In this document: positions 694 to 10,617 of the stretch, piece by piece
Position numbering within the stretch: position 1 is the stretch's first letter
How the letters are laid out: each line of letters starts with the position of its first letter
DNA from: a virus
Direction: 5' to 3' (one strand)
Length of the DNA stretch: 21,633 nt
IMG/VR virus record: IMGVR_UViG_3300021138_000197
Coordinates: 1 to 21,633 of that record
The notes under the pieces: generated by a model
What the model saw: the letters and a program-made list of their open reading frames with translations, nothing else
The model's database searches: none
Told to the model about the DNA's origin: nothing
Translations under genes and position numbers: made by a program

Positions 694-870
694 CTTGATT
701 CGGCGTTTACGTGCGCTATGTATCAGCATTTCTTTTACGCGGTCCGTGGCAACACACGGTATAAATATATTTGCACCTACAGAGAAAGCCGCCCAATCAA
801 ATGAGTAAGTGACTCCCTCTGCGTCGATGATGCAGTATGTAGATTGTTTAGGCTTTGTCTTTCTGCTCAT
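631..870 (-). CDS. Small phage protein of unknown function, 79 aa
   Basis: Last gene of the leftward operon. It overlaps the 3' end of the primase-helicase gene by 23 nt (start codon at 868-870, primase stop at 848-850), which suggests translational coupling; no good Shine-Dalgarno precedes it. The basic N-terminus (SRKTKPKQ) is followed by an alternating hydrophobic pattern and a basic RKRRIK segment, compatible with a small nucleic-acid-binding fold, but no family can be named. The segment VGANIFIPC...RVKEML is reminiscent of small uncharacterised phage proteins. The strong terminator follows 54 nt after its stop. Confidence 0.7.
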   Translation of the reverse strand: MSRKTKPKQSTYCIIDAEGVTYSFDWAAFSVGANIFIPCVATDRVKEMLIHSARKRRIKLHIVIGERNGLWGVGVWRMC

Positions 871-3682
871 CTAGTTCTGCACCCATATCGAACACACGGC
901 TATGCGGATCGTGGATAGCTAATACATTGGCAGGAGGCGTACTCAACTCTGTGCCTTTAGCCATGCGTTTTTTAGTGGTAGTAATATCAAGCCCACTGTC
1001 TTTGAGCCCGTTAATCAACTCGTTATAACCCACCTGACGTTTAACACACCATGCCTTAAATGGTGGCGCAGCAAGGAAGATCGTCTTGGTATTAGGTTCA
1101 TAGCGAATCAACAACTCACCCCGGGGTTCACGCACTGCGATGGGTTTGTATGCAGTATCGCTATCGTCAATGATAAGCACGTTATTGATGTTTTGGTTAA
1201 TGTACGCGGCTAAGCTATCTGAACCATCTGCGGAGCTCTTTGTATTAGCCGCAGCCGTTGCCAAGAATGTAGATGCCCACCGTGCTACACGCGCAATGTC
1301 GATATTGTGCAAGCCTAACCCAGCCGCGATCGTACCACCAGTCAGTGCAATAGCTGCCATGTTTGACCAGATACGCTCGCGCTGATTAAGTTTTGCATTC
1401 AGATCAGTCTGCGCTTGTATTTCGCTAAGCATAGTCTTGGCAATATCTACGTTATTAACGATATAGGCCATAAGGGTTTCACCAGCTAGCCCATAATTAT
1501 CATGCAGCTTCGAGAATAAATGATCCGTCTGTGATTTTGTGAACAGCGTATTGCGCTGCACGGGTACTTCCATCACGCGCATCAACTCACCTTCTGGAAA
1601 ATCTTTTTCAGCAGACAGCTTATCGACAATACTGCTATTAGATGATGTGATGGTTGGGGCCTGCCACGTAGTATTATTTACGCGCTCGGCATTTGTACTG
1701 GCCTGCAAACGGTTTTTACCCCGCGCAGCAGTAGCCGCATACACCATGTTCGACATCTCGATTGGGGATAAGTTTGTAATCTCGTCGATCGTAATAGGTA
1801 AGTGCTGCAGAACACCCATACGGTGGATGCGTGCGTTATATGTATCATCCTTTTGCAGTAGTAAATCAATCGGATGGCCCCAGATGCTATTAGCTACCAT
1901 GAGTGCTGTGGATTTACCGATACCCGATTTGTTGCTCATAAGATTATAGATACCGCCCCGATGCTGCGTCAGGTGCATAAGCGGTGCGCCAAAGCTCAGG
2001 AATATAGCAAATGCAAAAGGTTCAAGTCCGGGTGTGTCATAGAAGTTAACAACCTTGAGCCACTCCTCTAGTGTGCCTTTCTTTTGCAGCAAACTAGTTA
2101 CCTTTAATGTGGCAGCAGAGGGTGGACTATAGCGGCTCGCTTCAGCAGGGGTTGCGGCTTGCGCAACAGGTAGGATTTCTCGATCGCCAATTAAGAACGA
2201 CCCTTCGGCAGTCCAACCCATTTGGGTTCTCATATTGTCTGTCTTTTCACGCATTTGTAGCCTCTTTACGGATTTCTGGATGTAGGTCATTAAGGCATCA
2301 AAGTTTTTACCACTTGCCATAACACCGTACTCTGCAACGGCATCACGAAATTTATCTTTGGATACGACTACGGCGAGCGGTACATTAAATTCACGTATGC
2401 CATCATGGGGCAACTTCAATCGCAACAATATAGATTCCCCAAGCATAGGGTCTTGTATACGCTTAACTACATAGAAGTCATGTTCATACACGCATATCTC
2501 AGCACGGCTCTCACCCTCGCCAACTTCCGTATATACACCGCCAGTTTTGCCACGAAAGAACGGGAAAGGGAATGGCTCAATAACTTCCTGCGCAGGTTGT
2601 TTTGTAAGTGGATCAACAACCTTGACTATATTATCTTCTTCAGTTGCGCGTAATACTTCGCGCCCAAGCACTACAGGTGTCGTGATCTTGCCCTGCATGG
2701 GGCAGTCTTTACAGCCTTCGGGATTCAAGCCTTCAAATGTTTTGCAATATTGTGGCCCTTCAGTCTTGCTGGCTTTGCTTTCGGTTTCTACGTGCGAGTA
2801 CTGTGGGTGCTGGTTGGACATTGCATGAATAGCTTCGTCACGATCTACACAGACCTGTGCAATAGATAATCCTGCACGCCACAATGGTTCACTTATCGTT
2901 GCTTGGTTTTCGCAAATATGTTTTAGCTGTGTACAAGTCTCTGTACGTACAAGTATATTTTTAAATCGGGTGACATGGTTTTGCAAGAACGCTTTAGTTG
3001 TAGCGTCCATGGTGTACTTAATATTTTTGGGCACATCAAACGGCAATGCGTTATCGGCCACAATGGATTCACCCGACCCAAGTTTTTCTGCAAAAGCTAC
3101 GAGTTTAATCGCGGTCTTGCGTGACTTAAGTATTTCGACAGGCTTGGGTTCATCAGGGTTACTGTAATTGAACGTGCCCGGTATGCGCAGTATGCGTGCA
3201 GAATCCGATGTGCATGATGGGTCAGCACGAAGCCCATGCTCTGTGCACACTGCTTTAAGCCGCTTGGCTATAGGTAGCCATACCTCAGATGTAATCTCTT
3301 TGTCCAGAGGCCAATACAAGTGCAAGCCATTACCTGAACTCACGACTACGGGCTGTGGTAATCCTGTGGCTTTGATGAATGCCATGACAGCGCTAGCAGC
3401 TTCGGCTTGTGTGGGATAACCACTACCGTCTGCCTTGTTGCTGTCCACATCCAACCAAAACGATTTTACAAATGCTACGTTAGATTGCTTACGTTCCGAT
3501 CCGTCGATAAACGACGCGCAAGCAAAGTACTGATTAACCGGTGCGTCAATAGCGTTACTCGCAGGCTCAAAATCCGCGATAGCCGGTAAGAATAGATGTT
3601 CAACTTTCTTGCCCAATATGGCTGCTAAGCAGTATGTTCCCGATTCAGGAAGCACAAAGCGCAGAAATTCTGTTGGTGTCAT
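848..3682 (-). CDS. Bifunctional AEP-type primase / DUF927-like helicase
   Basis: A 944-aa replication protein expected to make primers and unwind DNA at the phage fork. The N-terminal third carries archaeo-eukaryotic primase features: FWLDVD with acidic D78 and D80, the SSGNGLHLYW motif with H121, and ADPS (D154) followed by RILRIPGTFNY. A cysteine cluster around residues 315-335 (YCKTF... then CKDC) could bind zinc. The C-terminal half resembles the DUF927 helicase-like module: Walker A SGIGKST near residue 585 and Walker B ITIDEI near 632. It lies downstream of the XRE-type regulator and SSB-like genes and is probably transcribed from the 5.55-kb promoter. The Shine-Dalgarno is weak (AGAAG before the ATG at 3682). 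The length suits a fused primase-helicase. Confident on primase and ATPase; the helicase direction cannot be read. Confidence 0.9.
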   Translation of the reverse strand: MTPTEFLRFVLPESGTYCLAAILGKKVEHLFLPAIADFEPASNAIDAPVNQYFACASFIDGSERKQSNVAFVKSFWLDVDSNKADGSGYPTQAEAASAVMAFIKATGLPQPVVVSSGNGLHLYWPLDKEITSEVWLPIAKRLKAVCTEHGLRADPSCTSDSARILRIPGTFNYSNPDEPKPVEILKSRKTAIKLVAFAEKLGSGESIVADNALPFDVPKNIKYTMDATTKAFLQNHVTRFKNILVRTETCTQLKHICENQATISEPLWRAGLSIAQVCVDRDEAIHAMSNQHPQYSHVETESKASKTEGPQYCKTFEGLNPEGCKDCPMQGKITTPVVLGREVLRATEEDNIVKVVDPLTKQPAQEVIEPFPFPFFRGKTGGVYTEVGEGESRAEICVYEHDFYVVKRIQDPMLGESILLRLKLPHDGIREFNVPLAVVVSKDKFRDAVAEYGVMASGKNFDALMTYIQKSVKRLQMREKTDNMRTQMGWTAEGSFLIGDREILPVAQAATPAEASRYSPPSAATLKVTSLLQKKGTLEEWLKVVNFYDTPGLEPFAFAIFLSFGAPLMHLTQHRGGIYNLMSNKSGIGKSTALMVANSIWGHPIDLLLQKDDTYNARIHRMGVLQHLPITIDEITNLSPIEMSNMVYAATAARGKNRLQASTNAERVNNTTWQAPTITSSNSSIVDKLSAEKDFPEGELMRVMEVPVQRNTLFTKSQTDHLFSKLHDNYGLAGETLMAYIVNNVDIAKTMLSEIQAQTDLNAKLNQRERIWSNMAAIALTGGTIAAGLGLHNIDIARVARWASTFLATAAANTKSSADGSDSLAAYINQNINNVLIIDDSDTAYKPIAVREPRGELLIRYEPNTKTIFLAAPPFKAWCVKRQVGYNELINGLKDSGLDITTTKKRMAKGTELSTPPANVLAIHDPHSRVFDMGAELDEQKDKA

Positions 3683-3996: not shown

Positions 3997-4908
3997 TTAC
4001 TCGTCGTCGTCAGCCCACTGATCTAACACTGACTTAACATCGGCAGCTTTACCTTTGCCGCGCACCTTGGGTGGAGTATCTGGGGTAGTATCTTCTGCAG
4101 GTGCCGCCTGTGCTTGCTTGGCAACTGCCGCAGCGATAACCGAATTTGTTTCTGCATCAGCCTCGAATGGTTCATCATCTTCAGACTTCTCGGTCTTGGG
4201 TGTGAATGTCATCGTAACCGCAGCAGTAGCCTCGGGGCTTTCTGCACGTTCCATAACGGTTGTGTACTCATCTTGCTCAAGCGGACGGATCGGTTTGAAT
4301 GTCAACTTAGGTGTCGCAGATGTGGTATCAAAACGCATCTCAGTAACCACAGCAGTAACCGGCAACGAATGCCCTGCAAGAAACTTAACATAAGCTTCAA
4401 GTGGCAACTTGCCTTTCTCGCCCTTACCAAAAATAGATTGCGATGGCAGTGCTAACTGAAGCACATCACCTGAAATATCGTTATCCAATACTACTGCAAG
4501 CCTACGGGTATAGCGGCATGCGCGTGACTCGCCTTGACCGGAACCTTTAATGTTCTGCGGACACGTTGCGCACTTTGGGCTCTGTGGTTTACGTACGATC
4601 GCATCAGGTGTTTCGTTATTTGTTGACCAGCAATCAGGTGCAGCGTTCTCGCCTTCCTTGTATGTACCCGCATAAAACGTACGATGCACACTTGCGGCGC
4701 TCTTGACAATCACGACATTCATGGCGCGGTCATCATTCTGCATAACTTCTTCGCCATTTACAATCTTGCGAAACACACCACCGCGAATAGAGATACGCGA
4801 TACTGAATCACCACCACCACCCATGAGGTTACGCGTGGTCTCGTCCATTGTAATGCCCTTGAGGTATGCGGGCAGTTTAGCGGTATTAAAAAGAGTGAGT
4901 TCACTCAT
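3997..4908 (-). CDS. Putative phage ssDNA-binding protein with Cys4 motif and acidic tail
   Basis: A 303-aa protein that probably coats single-stranded DNA during replication and recombination. Seen directly: four cysteines in the middle (C93, C113, C116, C131) that could hold a zinc ion, with basic residues around them (CRYTRRLAV); a beta-rich core; a long low-complexity Ala/Pro/acidic linker from about residue 235; and an acidic C-terminus DQWADDDE. Acidic tips of this kind are the partner-docking element of E. coli SSB, T7 gp2.5 and T4 gp32. It is made in the same operon as the primase-helicase, and its start overlaps the stop of the HTH gene by 8 nt (ATGAGTGA) with GGAG 6 nt upstream. Sequence alone does not place it in a named SSB family; another ssDNA- or RNA-binding role is possible. 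Confidence 0.65.
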   Translation of the reverse strand: MSELTLFNTAKLPAYLKGITMDETTRNLMGGGGDSVSRISIRGGVFRKIVNGEEVMQNDDRAMNVVIVKSAASVHRTFYAGTYKEGENAAPDCWSTNNETPDAIVRKPQSPKCATCPQNIKGSGQGESRACRYTRRLAVVLDNDISGDVLQLALPSQSIFGKGEKGKLPLEAYVKFLAGHSLPVTAVVTEMRFDTTSATPKLTFKPIRPLEQDEYTTVMERAESPEATAAVTMTFTPKTEKSEDDEPFEADAETNSVIAAAVAKQAQAAPAEDTTPDTPPKVRGKGKAADVKSVLDQWADDDE

Positions 4909-5570: not shown

Positions 5571-7124
5571 TTAGTTGTTGATAATCTCCTCATAAAGCGC
5601 AAGTAAACTTACATTGGTGTCTTCGCAATTATCTAATGCCTTGTATCTTTTCTCCTCTACGGGACTGCCTTGCAATTTCACAATTAGGCATTTGTTCTTT
5701 TGCCCCGCGCGGTGGATACGGGCATTAGCTTGGGCGTAGGTTTCATACGACATGATCGGGCCCCACCATACGATCGTATTGGCAGCATGCAGAGTAATTC
5801 CGTGCGATGCAGCCTGTGGTTGAATGATCAACACTTTTGGATCGGCTTGCTCTTGGAATGTTTTTATAACTGCCGCGCGTTTGTTGGCATTCACACCGCC
5901 ATGTATCGTATCCACAGCATAACCATCGGCGGTCAGCTTCTCAATCAGTAGTTCAATAGTATGCGTGTATGGCACAAACACCAGCACCTTATGTGGAGTG
6001 TCATCAATTACTTCGCGTAGCACATCGTAGCGTGGGCGTATATCAAGTTCAACTGTCTGATGGTCATCGGTATATACCGCCCCGCATGAAATCTGCAGCA
6101 GCTTATTAAGGCCGGCGGCGGCGTTGACCGCAGAGATAATTTCACCTGCTGCGAGTACAGCTAAGTTCTTGCGAAGATCATCGTACAATTTTTTCTGTTG
6201 GCGGGTCAAAGGCACTTCGCGGGTTGTATAAATTATGTCTGGTAGGTCTAGGCATTGCTCCTTAGTGAACCGTATAGCAGGCTGTAGCATTTTGTTAACT
6301 ACCGCCACTGCCGATTGTTTGGGTACCCATTTAAAGTTTGTAATCTTTGTCATTACAGAATCACGGAACATACCGAATGATCTGGGCGCCGTGCTCGGGT
6401 GCATCATCTTAACCAAACCAAACGCATCAAGCGGTGACTGCGAGGCTGGCGTACCGGTCATCATCCAAACCCATGTATCTGGGCGAATTAATTTATTGAT
6501 ACTTTTCCAACGTTCGGTCGTAGCGGTCTTTACTGCGTTCGCCTCGTCAATGATGATCAGGTCAAAACCACCTGCCATAAGTTCTTTTTGTATAACTGCA
6601 ACACCATCAAAATTAATAATCACAAACTCTGTATCGGCTTCAAGAATCTTTTTACGTTTTTCTTTACTACCGTGTGCAACAGATACCGTGCGATGCATGA
6701 CACACAAAAACAAATCGCTCACCCACGTTGCCTGCATCACAGATACCGGGCAGATAACCAATACGCGTTTGATGCGCCCTATGGTCATTAGGTAGTCTGC
6801 GGCCCAGATAGCCGATGCGGTTTTGGCAGTGCCTTGCTCGTTGAAACAGAATGCCCTGCGGTTAAGGGTGAGGAACGCTGCAGTTTGTTTTTGGTGTGTG
6901 AAAGGTGCGCGTGATCCTGTCCACTTATATTTGGCAATGATAGGCGATGGTACATTGCGGATGTTCAGATTCTTTAGCACCTGCGCAGTATCAATATCCC
7001 AATGTACAAGTACCTCAGACATACCATCGACTTCGCCGACTATTGCGCTTTTCGGTATAACGTTGAGTACCCTAGCTGGATTGCGCAATAGTAACTTCAG
7101 AGCTCGATTGTCAATAATTTCCAT
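5571..7124 (-). CDS. SNF2-family (SF2) DNA helicase/translocase
   Basis: A 517-aa single-chain SF2 ATPase expected to translocate on DNA during phage replication or recombination. Motifs in order: Q-like FTHQKQTA (75-82); Walker A EQGTAKT (96-102; phage homologues usually have GLGKT or GTGKT, here GTAKT); DEAN as motif II (193-196); MTGTP as motif III (222-226); LVFVPYTH in the second RecA lobe; and QANARIHRAGQ as motif VI ending at 475. The last is diagnostic for SNF2-type proteins. No chromatin-type accessory domain is present, as is usual for phage forms. The ATG at 7122-7124 has only a weak upstream CGGAA. It is preceded by a long, highly folded non-coding region, and the promoter P3 begins immediately after its stop. 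Confidence 0.93.
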   Translation of the reverse strand: MEIIDNRALKLLLRNPARVLNVIPKSAIVGEVDGMSEVLVHWDIDTAQVLKNLNIRNVPSPIIAKYKWTGSRAPFTHQKQTAAFLTLNRRAFCFNEQGTAKTASAIWAADYLMTIGRIKRVLVICPVSVMQATWVSDLFLCVMHRTVSVAHGSKEKRKKILEADTEFVIINFDGVAVIQKELMAGGFDLIIIDEANAVKTATTERWKSINKLIRPDTWVWMMTGTPASQSPLDAFGLVKMMHPSTAPRSFGMFRDSVMTKITNFKWVPKQSAVAVVNKMLQPAIRFTKEQCLDLPDIIYTTREVPLTRQQKKLYDDLRKNLAVLAAGEIISAVNAAAGLNKLLQISCGAVYTDDHQTVELDIRPRYDVLREVIDDTPHKVLVFVPYTHTIELLIEKLTADGYAVDTIHGGVNANKRAAVIKTFQEQADPKVLIIQPQAASHGITLHAANTIVWWGPIMSYETYAQANARIHRAGQKNKCLIVKLQGSPVEEKRYKALDNCEDTNVSLLALYEEIINN

Positions 7125-7142
7125 AGTTATTCCGATAGGAAG

Positions 7143-7451
7143 TAGGCCGAATACACAATGTGCATCGGCCTAAAATGTGTGGGCTCCCATAAAGCAGGGT
7201 GGTCAAAGATACACCATACTACACGCTAAGTCGCTAACACTCTAGCACCCACAGGTATTCGTCTTTCCGAATCGTCATGTTGGCGAGTGCAAGCGCCTGC
7301 CAAGGAACTTTTTTCACCAACACGGATTAGGACTAAAGGTACGACCTGCACGTTACTTTAACTTCCCTGCAGTGACCTTTCGGTGGTGGGAAAGCCTGTA
7401 ATCCTAATGCGTGTTGGTGCTGGTTACGTTTATCCAGCGTCCTGTGCGGAC
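7143..7451 (-). ncRNA. Highly structured, unrecognised RNA element upstream of the SNF2 helicase gene
   Basis: About 310 nt with no convincing reading frame, in an otherwise tightly packed operon. Read on the minus strand it holds a succession of stems: GTCC/GGAC (7448-7451 with 7439-7442); GCTGG/CCAGC (7434-7438 with 7419-7423); an 18-bp stem with one mismatch (7402-7419 with 7315-7332) enclosing nested stems AAAGGT/ACCTTT, CTGCA/TGCAG and GTTA/TAAC; TTGGC/GCCAA with a bulge; ATTCG/CGAAT; GCTA/TAGC; a longer-range TGTGGG/CCCACA; and finally an 8-bp perfect stem (7143-7150 with 7165-7172). I recognise no tRNA, tmRNA, RNase P, SRP, 6S, group I or group II core, or known riboswitch. It could be a leader regulating the helicase, a processed small RNA, or a DNA-level signal such as a replication start. 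Its promoter is not evident. Confidence 0.6.
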
Positions 7452-7466
7452 CGATGCAACTATTAT

Positions 7467-7766
7467 CTACTTCTTTTTACGTTCGCGCTTGCTTACTTCA
7501 GATACTAAATTACCTTTGGAGTCACGCTTAAATGAACGATTACTGTTTGAATCTTCAACCTTGATACCGTCTTTGATAGAGCCACCCTTGTCGATAGCTT
7601 TAACGTGAGCAGCATCCTTACCATCACCCTTACGCAACTTGCCAACTTTTACTAATGCGTTACGTGCTTTGTTGCGCTCATCACGTTTCTTGATCTGATC
7701 GGGCCTGCCTTGGTACGATTCATACTCATGCTTGTAATCACGATCAGCTTTATTTTTATATGGCAT
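7467..7766 (-). CDS. HNH-like phage protein, possibly catalytically degenerate, 99 aa
   Basis: The sequence opens MPYKNKADRDYKHEYESY, very basic, and carries GDGKDAAHVKAIDKGGSIKDG followed by SNSNRSF. This is the layout of small phage HNH proteins: the first His in a D-H pair, a KGG turn, then Asn residues before RSF. Here the usual D-H of the first motif reads A-H (A53-H54), so nuclease activity is doubtful and a purely DNA-binding role is possible. The start is the ATG at 7764-7766, overlapping the preceding stop by one base (TGATG), with GGAGG 5 nt upstream; a GTG just before it is too close to the RBS. It lies between the Cas4-like nuclease and the structured RNA element. Confidence 0.75.
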   Translation of the reverse strand: MPYKNKADRDYKHEYESYQGRPDQIKKRDERNKARNALVKVGKLRKGDGKDAAHVKAIDKGGSIKDGIKVEDSNSNRSFKRDSKGNLVSEVSKRERKKK

Positions 7767-8443
7767 CACGTCCTCCGTGGCTCGTAGTGTTCACACTTAG
7801 CTACAGGGCACCATCCCCGGCATAAGCCTGACGGGTTAGCGTTCCATACGTTATGCTTGTATGCACCCTCAAGGCGCTTTACTTCTGGTAGCCAATCCAT
7901 CCACATCGTTGGTGCATCGTCCATTGCGTACTTCGTGGGTACTAACTTATCTTCTTGGCAAAACAGCAATCCAGCCTTGATCGACTTGATATGCGGATAT
8001 AGCTTGAACACTGCCAATGACATAAGCTGTAACTGACTGCTATCGGCATTCTTAGATTTGCCAAACTTGTAGTCAATCATGCGGGCTGTGCCCTTCTCGT
8101 GATTCAGTATAAGCAAATCAACTGCACCGCGCAACCATACGCCTTTGTCAAAGAATCCACAGGGCTCCATATCCGCAGTCAGACCAAACTTTAATTCGCA
8201 TAGCTTCTCGCCTTCAAGTGCTTTAAGCCGATCTAGTTGATCTTTCATATACGCAAACTGTGTAGGTATTGGTTTGCCTTCTTTGATATACAACTCAGCA
8301 GCTTTGTGCGCCGCAATCCCATACAGCATTATCTGTGTGGGTGATTCTTTTATGTCCTTAACAACTTTCAAATGGTAGTACTTTTTAGGGCACGATTGAA
8401 ATGTTTTAAGTGCCGAATACGACCATGCTACTGCGTTGTCCAT
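7766..8443 (-). CDS. Cas4/RecB-like PD-(D/E)XK nuclease with probable Fe-S cluster
   Basis: A 225-aa nuclease of the PDDEXK_1 type. Seen: SYSALKTFQSCPKKYY with C18 at the start; H46 in GIAAHKAAE; D109 in GAVDLLIL; the D124-Y-K126 core (MIDYKFGK); Q139 in SQLQLMS; and a C-terminal triplet C208, C212, C217. Four cysteines split as one N-terminal and three C-terminal are the arrangement that binds an iron-sulphur cluster in Cas4, AddB and related phage exonucleases. No CRISPR array or cas1 is nearby, so the role is likely recombination or end processing with the polymerase and SNF2 genes. It starts 1 nt after the polymerase stop (TAATATG). Confidence 0.88.
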   Translation of the reverse strand: MDNAVAWSYSALKTFQSCPKKYYHLKVVKDIKESPTQIMLYGIAAHKAAELYIKEGKPIPTQFAYMKDQLDRLKALEGEKLCELKFGLTADMEPCGFFDKGVWLRGAVDLLILNHEKGTARMIDYKFGKSKNADSSQLQLMSLAVFKLYPHIKSIKAGLLFCQEDKLVPTKYAMDDAPTMWMDWLPEVKRLEGAYKHNVWNANPSGLCRGWCPVAKCEHYEPRRT

Positions 8444-8449
8444 ATTAAC
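8437..8449 (-). repeat. 13-nt direct repeat at the 3' edge of the polymerase gene
   Basis: GTTAATATGGACA on the minus strand, spanning the polymerase stop and the Cas4-like start. An identical copy spans the polymerase start at 10316-10328, so the polymerase gene is bracketed by the repeat. Confidence 0.7.
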
Positions 8450-10322
8450 AATCCGCTAGAGTTTTGCCAAACTTAACTGTGGCATTTAAAGGTATATCAG
8501 GCATCCACTTAGGTGCTTTACACATCTCAGTATACACAAAGGCTTTAGCTGCATCAACATCAGCCTCGGGGGCTAAGACATAATCTGCATCATGTATGGT
8601 AAGCAATGTAGGGTAACGCTTATCAATGCGAATCATGCTCTCACCAATTACGCACCGGGCAAGTGACTGTACTACGCCTTGGAAAAACTTAGCACCATAG
8701 ATATGCTCTACGCCTTTGCGGGTGGTGTATGCCCATTTGGTCTTACCATTTACTGAAACCCTGCACAACTGCGGGTATCGCAGCACCAGTGTGGATGGCA
8801 ATAGCACACCCGACTCACCCAATACCTGTACTAGTCCATGCCGGCCATACCCCATCTGCCGATTCTGCATGATTGCAGTTAGTGCGCGTTCACCATGATC
8901 CCATGCAGCCTTTACGTGGGCGTATTCTTGGCGGTACAAATCTACAATACGCTGGCTTTCTGTTTCACCAATATCCACACGGGAACCTGATTTGATCGCA
9001 GCTCTTAACTTCTTAGCCCCTACGCCATAAATTAAGGATAGTTGCGAGGTCTTGCCAATGAAGCGTTGATCATCTGTGACATCATCATATGCAACACCGA
9101 ACACCGTAGACGCAAAGTCTTTATACAGATCGCGACCCTCACCCAATGCTTTAAGTTTATCTATTTGCCCTGCCAACCATAGCCCCACACGCAATTCAAT
9201 GTTCGATAAGTCAGCACCTACGATGGTGTATCCCTCTGGTGCGTGTATCGCTTGTTTGATCTTGGACTTACGTGGCAAGTTTTGCAGGTTCACACTGTCT
9301 GCACCCGACCAACGATATGTACGGGCGCCCGCATAACGTAAGGGGATAGCCAATCTACCGCGCTCACCCATGGCAATAAAACGTTGCGTGCGTGTTTCCT
9401 CAAGCGTGGACTTCAACCCTAAACGCGCAGCGCACACAGTCTGCACACGTATATCATCATGCTCAGACAGCGCACGAAATCCCTCATCGGTCTTTGCGAA
9501 TGCCCAAACTTCTTTGCCCGTAGTGGGGCTAGTCTTGCGCGGTGGGCTCACACCTAAGTTCGTCAACATCGCTGCAAATTGATCATTAGATCGCAAGGCT
9601 TTTTGCACATGCTCGTGGTCAGCACCACCAACGATAGCTACTGCGGCTAAGTCATCGCGCCCAATCGCCTGTAGTGTGTGTATTAAGTGCGTGCGTTTAG
9701 ATTCTTTGACATCAACTAAGTGCGCATTGAGCATGTCGATATCAAGCTCCAGCAGTGGGCGCGTGAACATCCTGATTGTCATATCAATTAGCTTAAGCTC
9801 TGCCTTGGGAAACCCTGCATCCATCATGCGGTTAAAAATCGCGTGTGTCAGGTTTACATCGTTAATGCAATACTTGCCATATTGTGCCAGCTCCTGATCA
9901 CTGAAGTCTGATATGTGCTTACCCTTAGCATCCAATACTTCTGTGCCTTTTTCCCCGGCTTTATAGTGCAAGGCCATATTAGCTAGGGACACACTCGCAT
10001 CCACACCTAACGCCGCACGCCCCATGCTCATCGTGTCCATAATGACTTTAGGGTGTATGTTGTATTGAAACGCCAGTATGCCCGCATCAAACGCTGCGTT
10101 GTGCGCGATAAGCGCGGTGTTAGCCCAATCAATAGCGTGAAGCGCATCAATAACATTTGCCTCATCACGGCCATCTACCCACACCGTAGGTTCATCGTTG
10201 CGCTTGTATGCAAAGCCAATCACTTCAAACTGACCGTCATGGATGTAGGCCTCAGTAGTCATCTTGGTCAGGCTATACATGTTGTCGTAATACGTTTCGA
10301 AATCCAAAGCAACTATGTCCAT
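8445..10322 (-). CDS. Family A DNA polymerase with 3'-5' exonuclease domain
   Basis: A 625-aa replicative polymerase of the Pol I/T7 type. The exonuclease is intact: LDFET (D7, E9), HNAAFD (D79) and YCIND (Y151, D155). Polymerase motif A is GADLSNIELR with D371; motif B lies in GKTSQLSLIYGVGAKKLR (K, R/K and Y present); motif C is HDAD with D578 and D580. There is no 5'-nuclease domain, as in phage enzymes. The start is taken as the ATG at 10320-10322, 1 nt after the preceding stop (TAATATG), with AGGAG 10 nt upstream; a TTG three codons earlier is in frame but abuts the RBS. Motif B retains a Tyr. Processivity factors such as a T7-style thioredoxin-binding insert cannot be judged. Flanked by the VRR-NUC and Cas4-like nuclease genes. 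Confidence 0.96.
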   Translation of the reverse strand: MDIVALDFETYYDNMYSLTKMTTEAYIHDGQFEVIGFAYKRNDEPTVWVDGRDEANVIDALHAIDWANTALIAHNAAFDAGILAFQYNIHPKVIMDTMSMGRAALGVDASVSLANMALHYKAGEKGTEVLDAKGKHISDFSDQELAQYGKYCINDVNLTHAIFNRMMDAGFPKAELKLIDMTIRMFTRPLLELDIDMLNAHLVDVKESKRTHLIHTLQAIGRDDLAAVAIVGGADHEHVQKALRSNDQFAAMLTNLGVSPPRKTSPTTGKEVWAFAKTDEGFRALSEHDDIRVQTVCAARLGLKSTLEETRTQRFIAMGERGRLAIPLRYAGARTYRWSGADSVNLQNLPRKSKIKQAIHAPEGYTIVGADLSNIELRVGLWLAGQIDKLKALGEGRDLYKDFASTVFGVAYDDVTDDQRFIGKTSQLSLIYGVGAKKLRAAIKSGSRVDIGETESQRIVDLYRQEYAHVKAAWDHGERALTAIMQNRQMGYGRHGLVQVLGESGVLLPSTLVLRYPQLCRVSVNGKTKWAYTTRKGVEHIYGAKFFQGVVQSLARCVIGESMIRIDKRYPTLLTIHDADYVLAPEADVDAAKAFVYTEMCKAPKWMPDIPLNATVKFGKTLADC

Positions 10323-10328
10323 ATTAAC
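10316..10328 (-). repeat. 13-nt direct repeat at the 5' edge of the polymerase gene
   Basis: GTTAATATGGACA on the minus strand, identical to 8437-8449. It contains the stop of the VRR-NUC gene and the start of the polymerase gene. Confidence 0.7.
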
Positions 10329-10617
10329 CAAGCTCCTGTAGCATACGCTGTACGTCTTCTATATTGTTTTCATTCACAACAATGGCCCTACCGCCTGCAT
10401 CGCGTATCTTCTGCAACTCACGTTCCTGCAACATTGTGGTCGTGCCTTTGCCCGCCTTGCATTCAATACCAAAGAAGTGCTCGTTATAACACCCTATGAT
10501 GTCTAGAATCCCCGAACGCCCATAGCCACCCGTTGCCGGCATGAAATAGTACACGCCGTGCGCATCCAGTATGCGTCTGACTTTCGCTTTGACTTTACCT
10601 TCGGGCGTGAGAGCCAT
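10324..10617 (-). CDS. VRR-NUC domain nuclease, 97 aa
   Basis: A stand-alone VRR-NUC protein, a PD-(D/E)XK relative that in phages is thought to cut branched DNA (Holliday junction-like) intermediates. Seen: MPATGGYGRSGILDIIG with D39; FFGIECKAGKG with E52 and K54; then the helix TTTMLQERELQKIRDAGG with Q64; and AIVVNE. These are the standard motifs in order, and the length is normal for a single-domain phage version. The start is the ATG at 10615-10617, sharing one base with the stop of the 43-aa gene upstream (TAATG) and preceded by AAGGTG. It lies directly before the polymerase gene and is presumably part of the same replication and recombination set. Confidence 0.92.
   Translation of the reverse strand: MALTPEGKVKAKVRRILDAHGVYYFMPATGGYGRSGILDIIGCYNEHFFGIECKAGKGTTTMLQERELQKIRDAGGRAIVVNENNIEDVQRMLQELG

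Follow-up and report, generated by a model that had tools for sequence, protein, structure and literature searches.

On the leftward strand of the window, by which we mean the whole 21 633-nt stretch of viral DNA that was analyzed, the largest gap between genes very probably holds a conserved modular RNA (we put the probability at about 0.93), and comparison with related sequences suggests a widespread class of viral RNA that has yet to be named. In the ORF map of the window the gap spans 342 nt (7125–7466) in a replication operon, and the remaining leftward genes overlap or lie within ∼90 nt of each other. Downstream is a gene for an SNF2-type helicase (5571–7124, minus strand; Pfam SNF2-rel_dom, E 2.4e-21, and Helicase_C, E 1.6e-16), while upstream is a 100-aa gene (7467–7769, minus strand) that belongs to a family of unknown function (phrog_4590, E 1.9e-10) and had no match in a Pfam search. 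The same strand also encodes a DUF927 domain protein at 848–3682 and a family A DNA polymerase at 8445–10331. Leftward frames in the gap are neither long nor conserved. Folding of the minus strand of the gap gives −118.8 kcal/mol compared with −97.4 for shuffled sequences (z −3.56), with none of 100 shuffles as good; the plus strand gives a z of −2.81. These results bear out the initial annotation of a tight leftward operon with a non-coding, folded gap. A search for promoters and terminators near the gap found none.

What had been described as one element of ∼310 nt is in fact a series of modules that are conserved separately, arranged 5′ to 3′ on the minus strand as M1, M2, M6 and M3, followed by a separate hairpin and the start of the SNF2 gene (all on the minus strand). 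M1 (7418–7457), supported by covariance model R3, a stem test and covariation, has a 5′ CG, a stem I of GUCC/GGAC, and a stem II of GCUGG/CCAGC with the conserved loop AUAAACGUAA. A CG in the loop could pair with the 5′ CG as a candidate pseudoknot. A single compensatory case was seen in L121, which has tandem M1 copies at 4052 and 4247 and in which the first copy combines a loop CA with a 5′ UG; it was the one useful case from a search with the loop variant CA, whose matches were mostly due to chance. M2 (7315–7419), supported by model R2 and covarying free pairs, has a long closing helix around a variable insert. This helix is the 18-bp stem with one mismatch that was noted before, and it is present at 7419–7402/7332–7315 with C.C as the mismatch. 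In relatives, the M2 consensus is CACYAACACGCAU-NNNGRUUG ... CAGYCNNN-AGYCGUGUUGGUG with a conserved internal loop. Between M2 and M6 lies the piece CCUUGGCAGG (7296–7305), common to the relatives L004, L005, L144 and L206. M6 (7257–7277; UGAC-G-AUUCG-GAAAGA-CGAAU) consists of UGAC and then a 5-bp hairpin with a GAAAGA loop. It stands directly upstream of M2 in 18 relatives, 13 of which have exactly 5 bp; exactly 5 bp were found at 46 of 247 GGAAAGAC sites. M3 (7177–7252), supported by model R1 and covariation, has an outer stem P1 (GUGGG/CCCAC) that encloses P2, with the loop GUUAGCG, and P3 (CCC-UGCUUUAU-GGG). The 8-bp hairpin UAGGCCGA/UCGGCCUA before the SNF2 start (7143–7172), also described initially, was confirmed by alignment. 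It is kept with compensatory changes in two relatives (L003 and L068) that both lack M1 to M3, which sets it apart from the modules. In Iodobacter phage phiPLPE (L594:500–760), a stretch with no annotated genes has an M6-type hairpin and then a long stem, CACCAACATTGCATCGT/ACGATGCAATGTTGGTG, with sequence unlike M2.

Covariance models built from other phages, with the window excluded, each find their module in the window as the sole match in 21.6 kb: R1 finds M3 with 44.3 bits (E 3e-12), R2 finds M2 with 40.9 bits (E 1.1e-9), and R3 finds M1 with 47.8 bits (E 6.9e-10). Compensatory changes are strong and abundant in the module stems. For M3, which was harvested with a pattern that fixes mainly loop motifs, 90.3% of the cells are paired, compared with 66.1% in shuffled alignments and 29–43% when slid, and 87 cells are double-changed against 23.4 in shuffles. 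In M2, many positions were fixed by the search pattern and carry no weight in covariation. The two variable inner pairs that are free of the pattern are paired in fractions of 1.00 and 0.98 compared with 0.69 and 0.67 shuffled (231 distinct stems among the matches listed), and the M2 alignment A5 has 28 double changes compared with 5.4 shuffled. Because alignment A6 of M1 had been selected for pairing, the unbiased test of this module is the first set of 14-mer matches, in which 39 of 103 gain three further pairs compared with 9.0 expected. Of the 39 matches having stem II, 32 also have stem I and the 5′ CG, compared with only 5 of the other 64. Because MAFFT misaligned stem I in an alignment across all M1 lengths, only short M1 copies were modeled. 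At least four RNA motifs are thus recognized, with covariation measured for three of them.

The family was first reached by a BLAST search in which a 24-nt sequence, GACGCTGGATAAACGTAACCAGCA, had an exact match in Klebsiella phage Carvaje, within a gap that bears tRNA and lacks annotation. It was then widened by core scans of viral contigs and side-by-side reading, which gave a second and a third common piece. Relatives of the modules occur in hundreds of viral contigs and in shuffled orders. The long-stem pattern of M2 is present in at least 239 viral contigs and in seven bacterial contigs, six from beta-proteobacterial genera (Variovorax twice, Chromobacterium, Paraburkholderia, Polynucleobacter and Caballeronia) and one from an unplaced Pseudomonadota genome. 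Among the matches listed, the gene after M2 most often encodes a terminase subunit, and in the window it is the SNF2-type helicase. The inserts of 258 M2 copies among the matches listed fall into 154 clusters; their length varies regardless of codons, and the same insert families recur in different flanks. Where M1 adjoins M2, it is usually directly upstream. At one terminase junction, the relatives are alike through M1 and then continue directly with the terminase, with a GIY-YIG-like gene (judged by eye), with M2, or with M2-tRNA-M2. The relatives L003 and L068, with 92% identity in SNF2, lack M1 to M3 at the same site. L004 and L005 have there, by eye and below the R1 threshold, an M3-like sequence with a GUUAGC loop and CCCG-UGCUUUAU-CGGG. 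BLAST searches of module arrays against phages gave no match for L302 and only partial matches for L280, L372 and L257. Downstream of the modules, L144, L164 and L206 have a common structured stretch with a terminator-like end stem, CCGCTTTAGT...ACTAAAGCGG, followed by T. L169 also has an int-alpA RNA (RF02996) above the gathering score at 1584–1651.

The island is probably an operon-embedded, trans-acting RNA that displays a variable insert. The full proposal, a structured non-coding RNA of independent, widely shared modules that is co-transcribed with the leftward replication operon and acts in trans, has in our judgment about an even chance of being correct, and the trans-acting mechanism, somewhat below that, is best regarded as tentative. 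Under this proposal, the RNA would be transcribed within the leftward operon, and the near-continuous long helix of M2 may stabilize it or mark a site at which it is cut from the operon transcript, with RNase P and RNase III considered as candidate enzymes acting on the stem. The same helix would serve as a constant scaffold for the hypervariable insert. M1 might help the polymerase through the untranslated stretch or mark the site at which cassettes are gained and lost. Once released, the RNA would act in trans, most likely as a ligand or decoy of host factors, for example nucleases or further components of defense. The decoy role is perhaps the case, as suggested by the hypervariability of the inserts and the tRNA-cluster neighborhoods.

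The main rival, less probable than the trans-acting RNA and still a serious possibility, is a cis-acting leader, in which M1 and perhaps the whole stretch would control read-through or translation of SNF2 and the genes after it. The modules share the strand of the genes that follow them and often head terminase operons, and in several phages M1 occurs alone 6–25 nt before start codons, which favors a cis role for at least M1. One form such a leader could take is an antiterminator like the put RNA of phage HK022, protecting untranslated RNA from Rho. The put RNA brings about read-through of terminators by contact with the zinc-binding domain of the RNA polymerase beta′ subunit, and M1 resembles it in being two adjacent stem-loops upstream of phage genes. 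However, put measures ∼74 nt, has a longer stem II and forms a triple helix (PMC9378689), whereas M1 is ∼40 nt with a 20-nt stem II, and the M1 core in its M1 arrangement has no match in HK022 25000–40751, so that identity by sequence was rejected. Hypervariable inserts, shuffled module orders and the wide variety of downstream genes would also be unexpected of a leader. Of the options offered by the initial annotation, a new non-coding RNA and a leader acting in cis both stay in play, and an origin-like DNA structure is disfavored by the evidence given below.

It is rather unlikely that the modules are selfish or passenger RNA cassettes, with M1 as an insertion hot spot after which M2, M3, tRNAs and homing-type genes come and go without benefit to the phage. 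The varied content after M1 at the terminase junction, the relatives without the stretch and the recurrence of the same insert families in different flanks are what such cassettes would produce, but strong covariation of the stems over a wide diversity of phages suggests that the RNA has a function of its own, and the modules are not associated with any mobility protein.

It is very improbable that the stretch acts at the DNA level by folding as single strands, for example as a replication origin or a site of recombination, even though it is in a replication operon, the palindromes are long and presence among relatives is sporadic. Among the free M2 pairs in the matches listed, G-U and A-C occur in a ratio of 149:8, beyond the shuffled ratio (p 1e-9). 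Since G-U pairs far outnumber A-C, function at the RNA level is indicated. In the same set of matches, the next ORF of at least 900 nt is on the same strand as M2 in 147 cases and on the opposite strand in 15, with only one copy of M2 overlapping an ORF of that size. This strand bias and the G-U excess, together with a conserved U.G pair, point to RNA and not to origin-like DNA, and the many relatives that have the modules before a terminase gene argue in the same direction. Chance folding or an unrecognized coding sequence can be dismissed, given the independent model matches (E 3e-12 to 1e-9), the covariation of M3 and M2 and the lack of a conserved frame, although a z of −3.6 taken by itself is arguably modest.

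As initially suggested, the RNA matched no recognized class in the searches run. With the gathering score as criterion, none of the 4227 families of Rfam 15 matched the window, and 12 relatives were likewise without a match. The sole permissive match within 7100–7480 at E values up to 10 was RT-6 with 13.2 bits (E 2.8), as expected by chance. In several phages, modules are located within or next to tRNA clusters, but they differ from phage tRNA arrays in that their conserved part is the scaffold stems, while the inserts do not score as tRNAs: ARAGORN and Rfam did not score the M2-insert loci L204, L322 and L400 as tRNA, and a search of the window with RF00005 and ARAGORN found no tRNA. Two M2 inserts (L204:4427–4521 and L169:6664–6772) are tRNA-like by eye and are not scored as tRNA. 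GOLLD and ROOL are large structured phage RNAs that are often found in tRNA-rich regions. The module island is likewise a structured phage RNA, a likeness in layout only, yet it consists of short interchangeable modules in contrast to one long conserved fold, and the GOLLD and ROOL models of Rfam had no match in the window, in 7100–7480 or in the 12 relatives. Integron cassette arrays are also alike in layout only, in that a constant leader is followed by exchangeable units that come and go. The units here, in contrast, are structured RNAs and not genes, no integrase was seen, and the evidence favors RNA over single-stranded DNA. A literature search confined to open-licence papers found no description of the module RNAs, and parts of the set may already be listed as unnamed candidates in earlier genome-wide screens.

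One broader reading, which we consider speculative, is that phages share a system of interchangeable structured-RNA cassettes behind the constant leader M1, with scaffolds that would carry hypervariable inserts in an arms race with the host. Equally conjectural is that, with this system, phages of Burkholderiales and of enterobacteria would possess an RNA equivalent of gene-cassette arrays. If the variable inserts do oppose host defense, they would represent a new route of RNA-based counter-defense. The modules expose a large unannotated layer of phage genomes: four or more RNA motifs recur across hundreds of viral contigs as well as cultured phages, and the 4227 Rfam families include none of them.

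The modules recur in cultured phages of Escherichia coli, Salmonella and Klebsiella. BLAST matches to M1 were found in related Klebsiella phages, in Sashavirus and in E. coli phage Bas82, and M1 is also present in Taipeivirus; its occurrence in Bas82, Sashavirus and Taipeivirus makes the function experimentally accessible. In Bas82 and Sasha, an unannotated gap that closely follows the gene for the major capsid protein holds M1 and then a long stem with a variable insert, which by eye has an M2-like layout and a sequence unlike M2. M2 itself occurs in the Podoviridae isolate ctfne034, and a linker of M2 arrays is common to E. coli phages Bas77–80. About 800 phage records match the 3′ half of the Carvaje RNA; in Carvaje itself, L002:4128–4390 is part of the tRNA-adjacent, non-coding stretch with these matches and has the T-arm-like GGGTTCGAGTCCC. 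For M3, the enterobacterial loci gave one weak, tRNA-like R1 match, in Vi01 (E 0.32), which we do not claim. In Klebsiella phage UPM2146 (L596:400–3094), M1 lies in a region where no gene is annotated over more than 2.6 kb. This region also holds a linker module and several inverted repeats of 17–18 bp, and Vi01 (L590) has a similar unannotated stretch, as does the VpaE1 tRNA cluster (L591).
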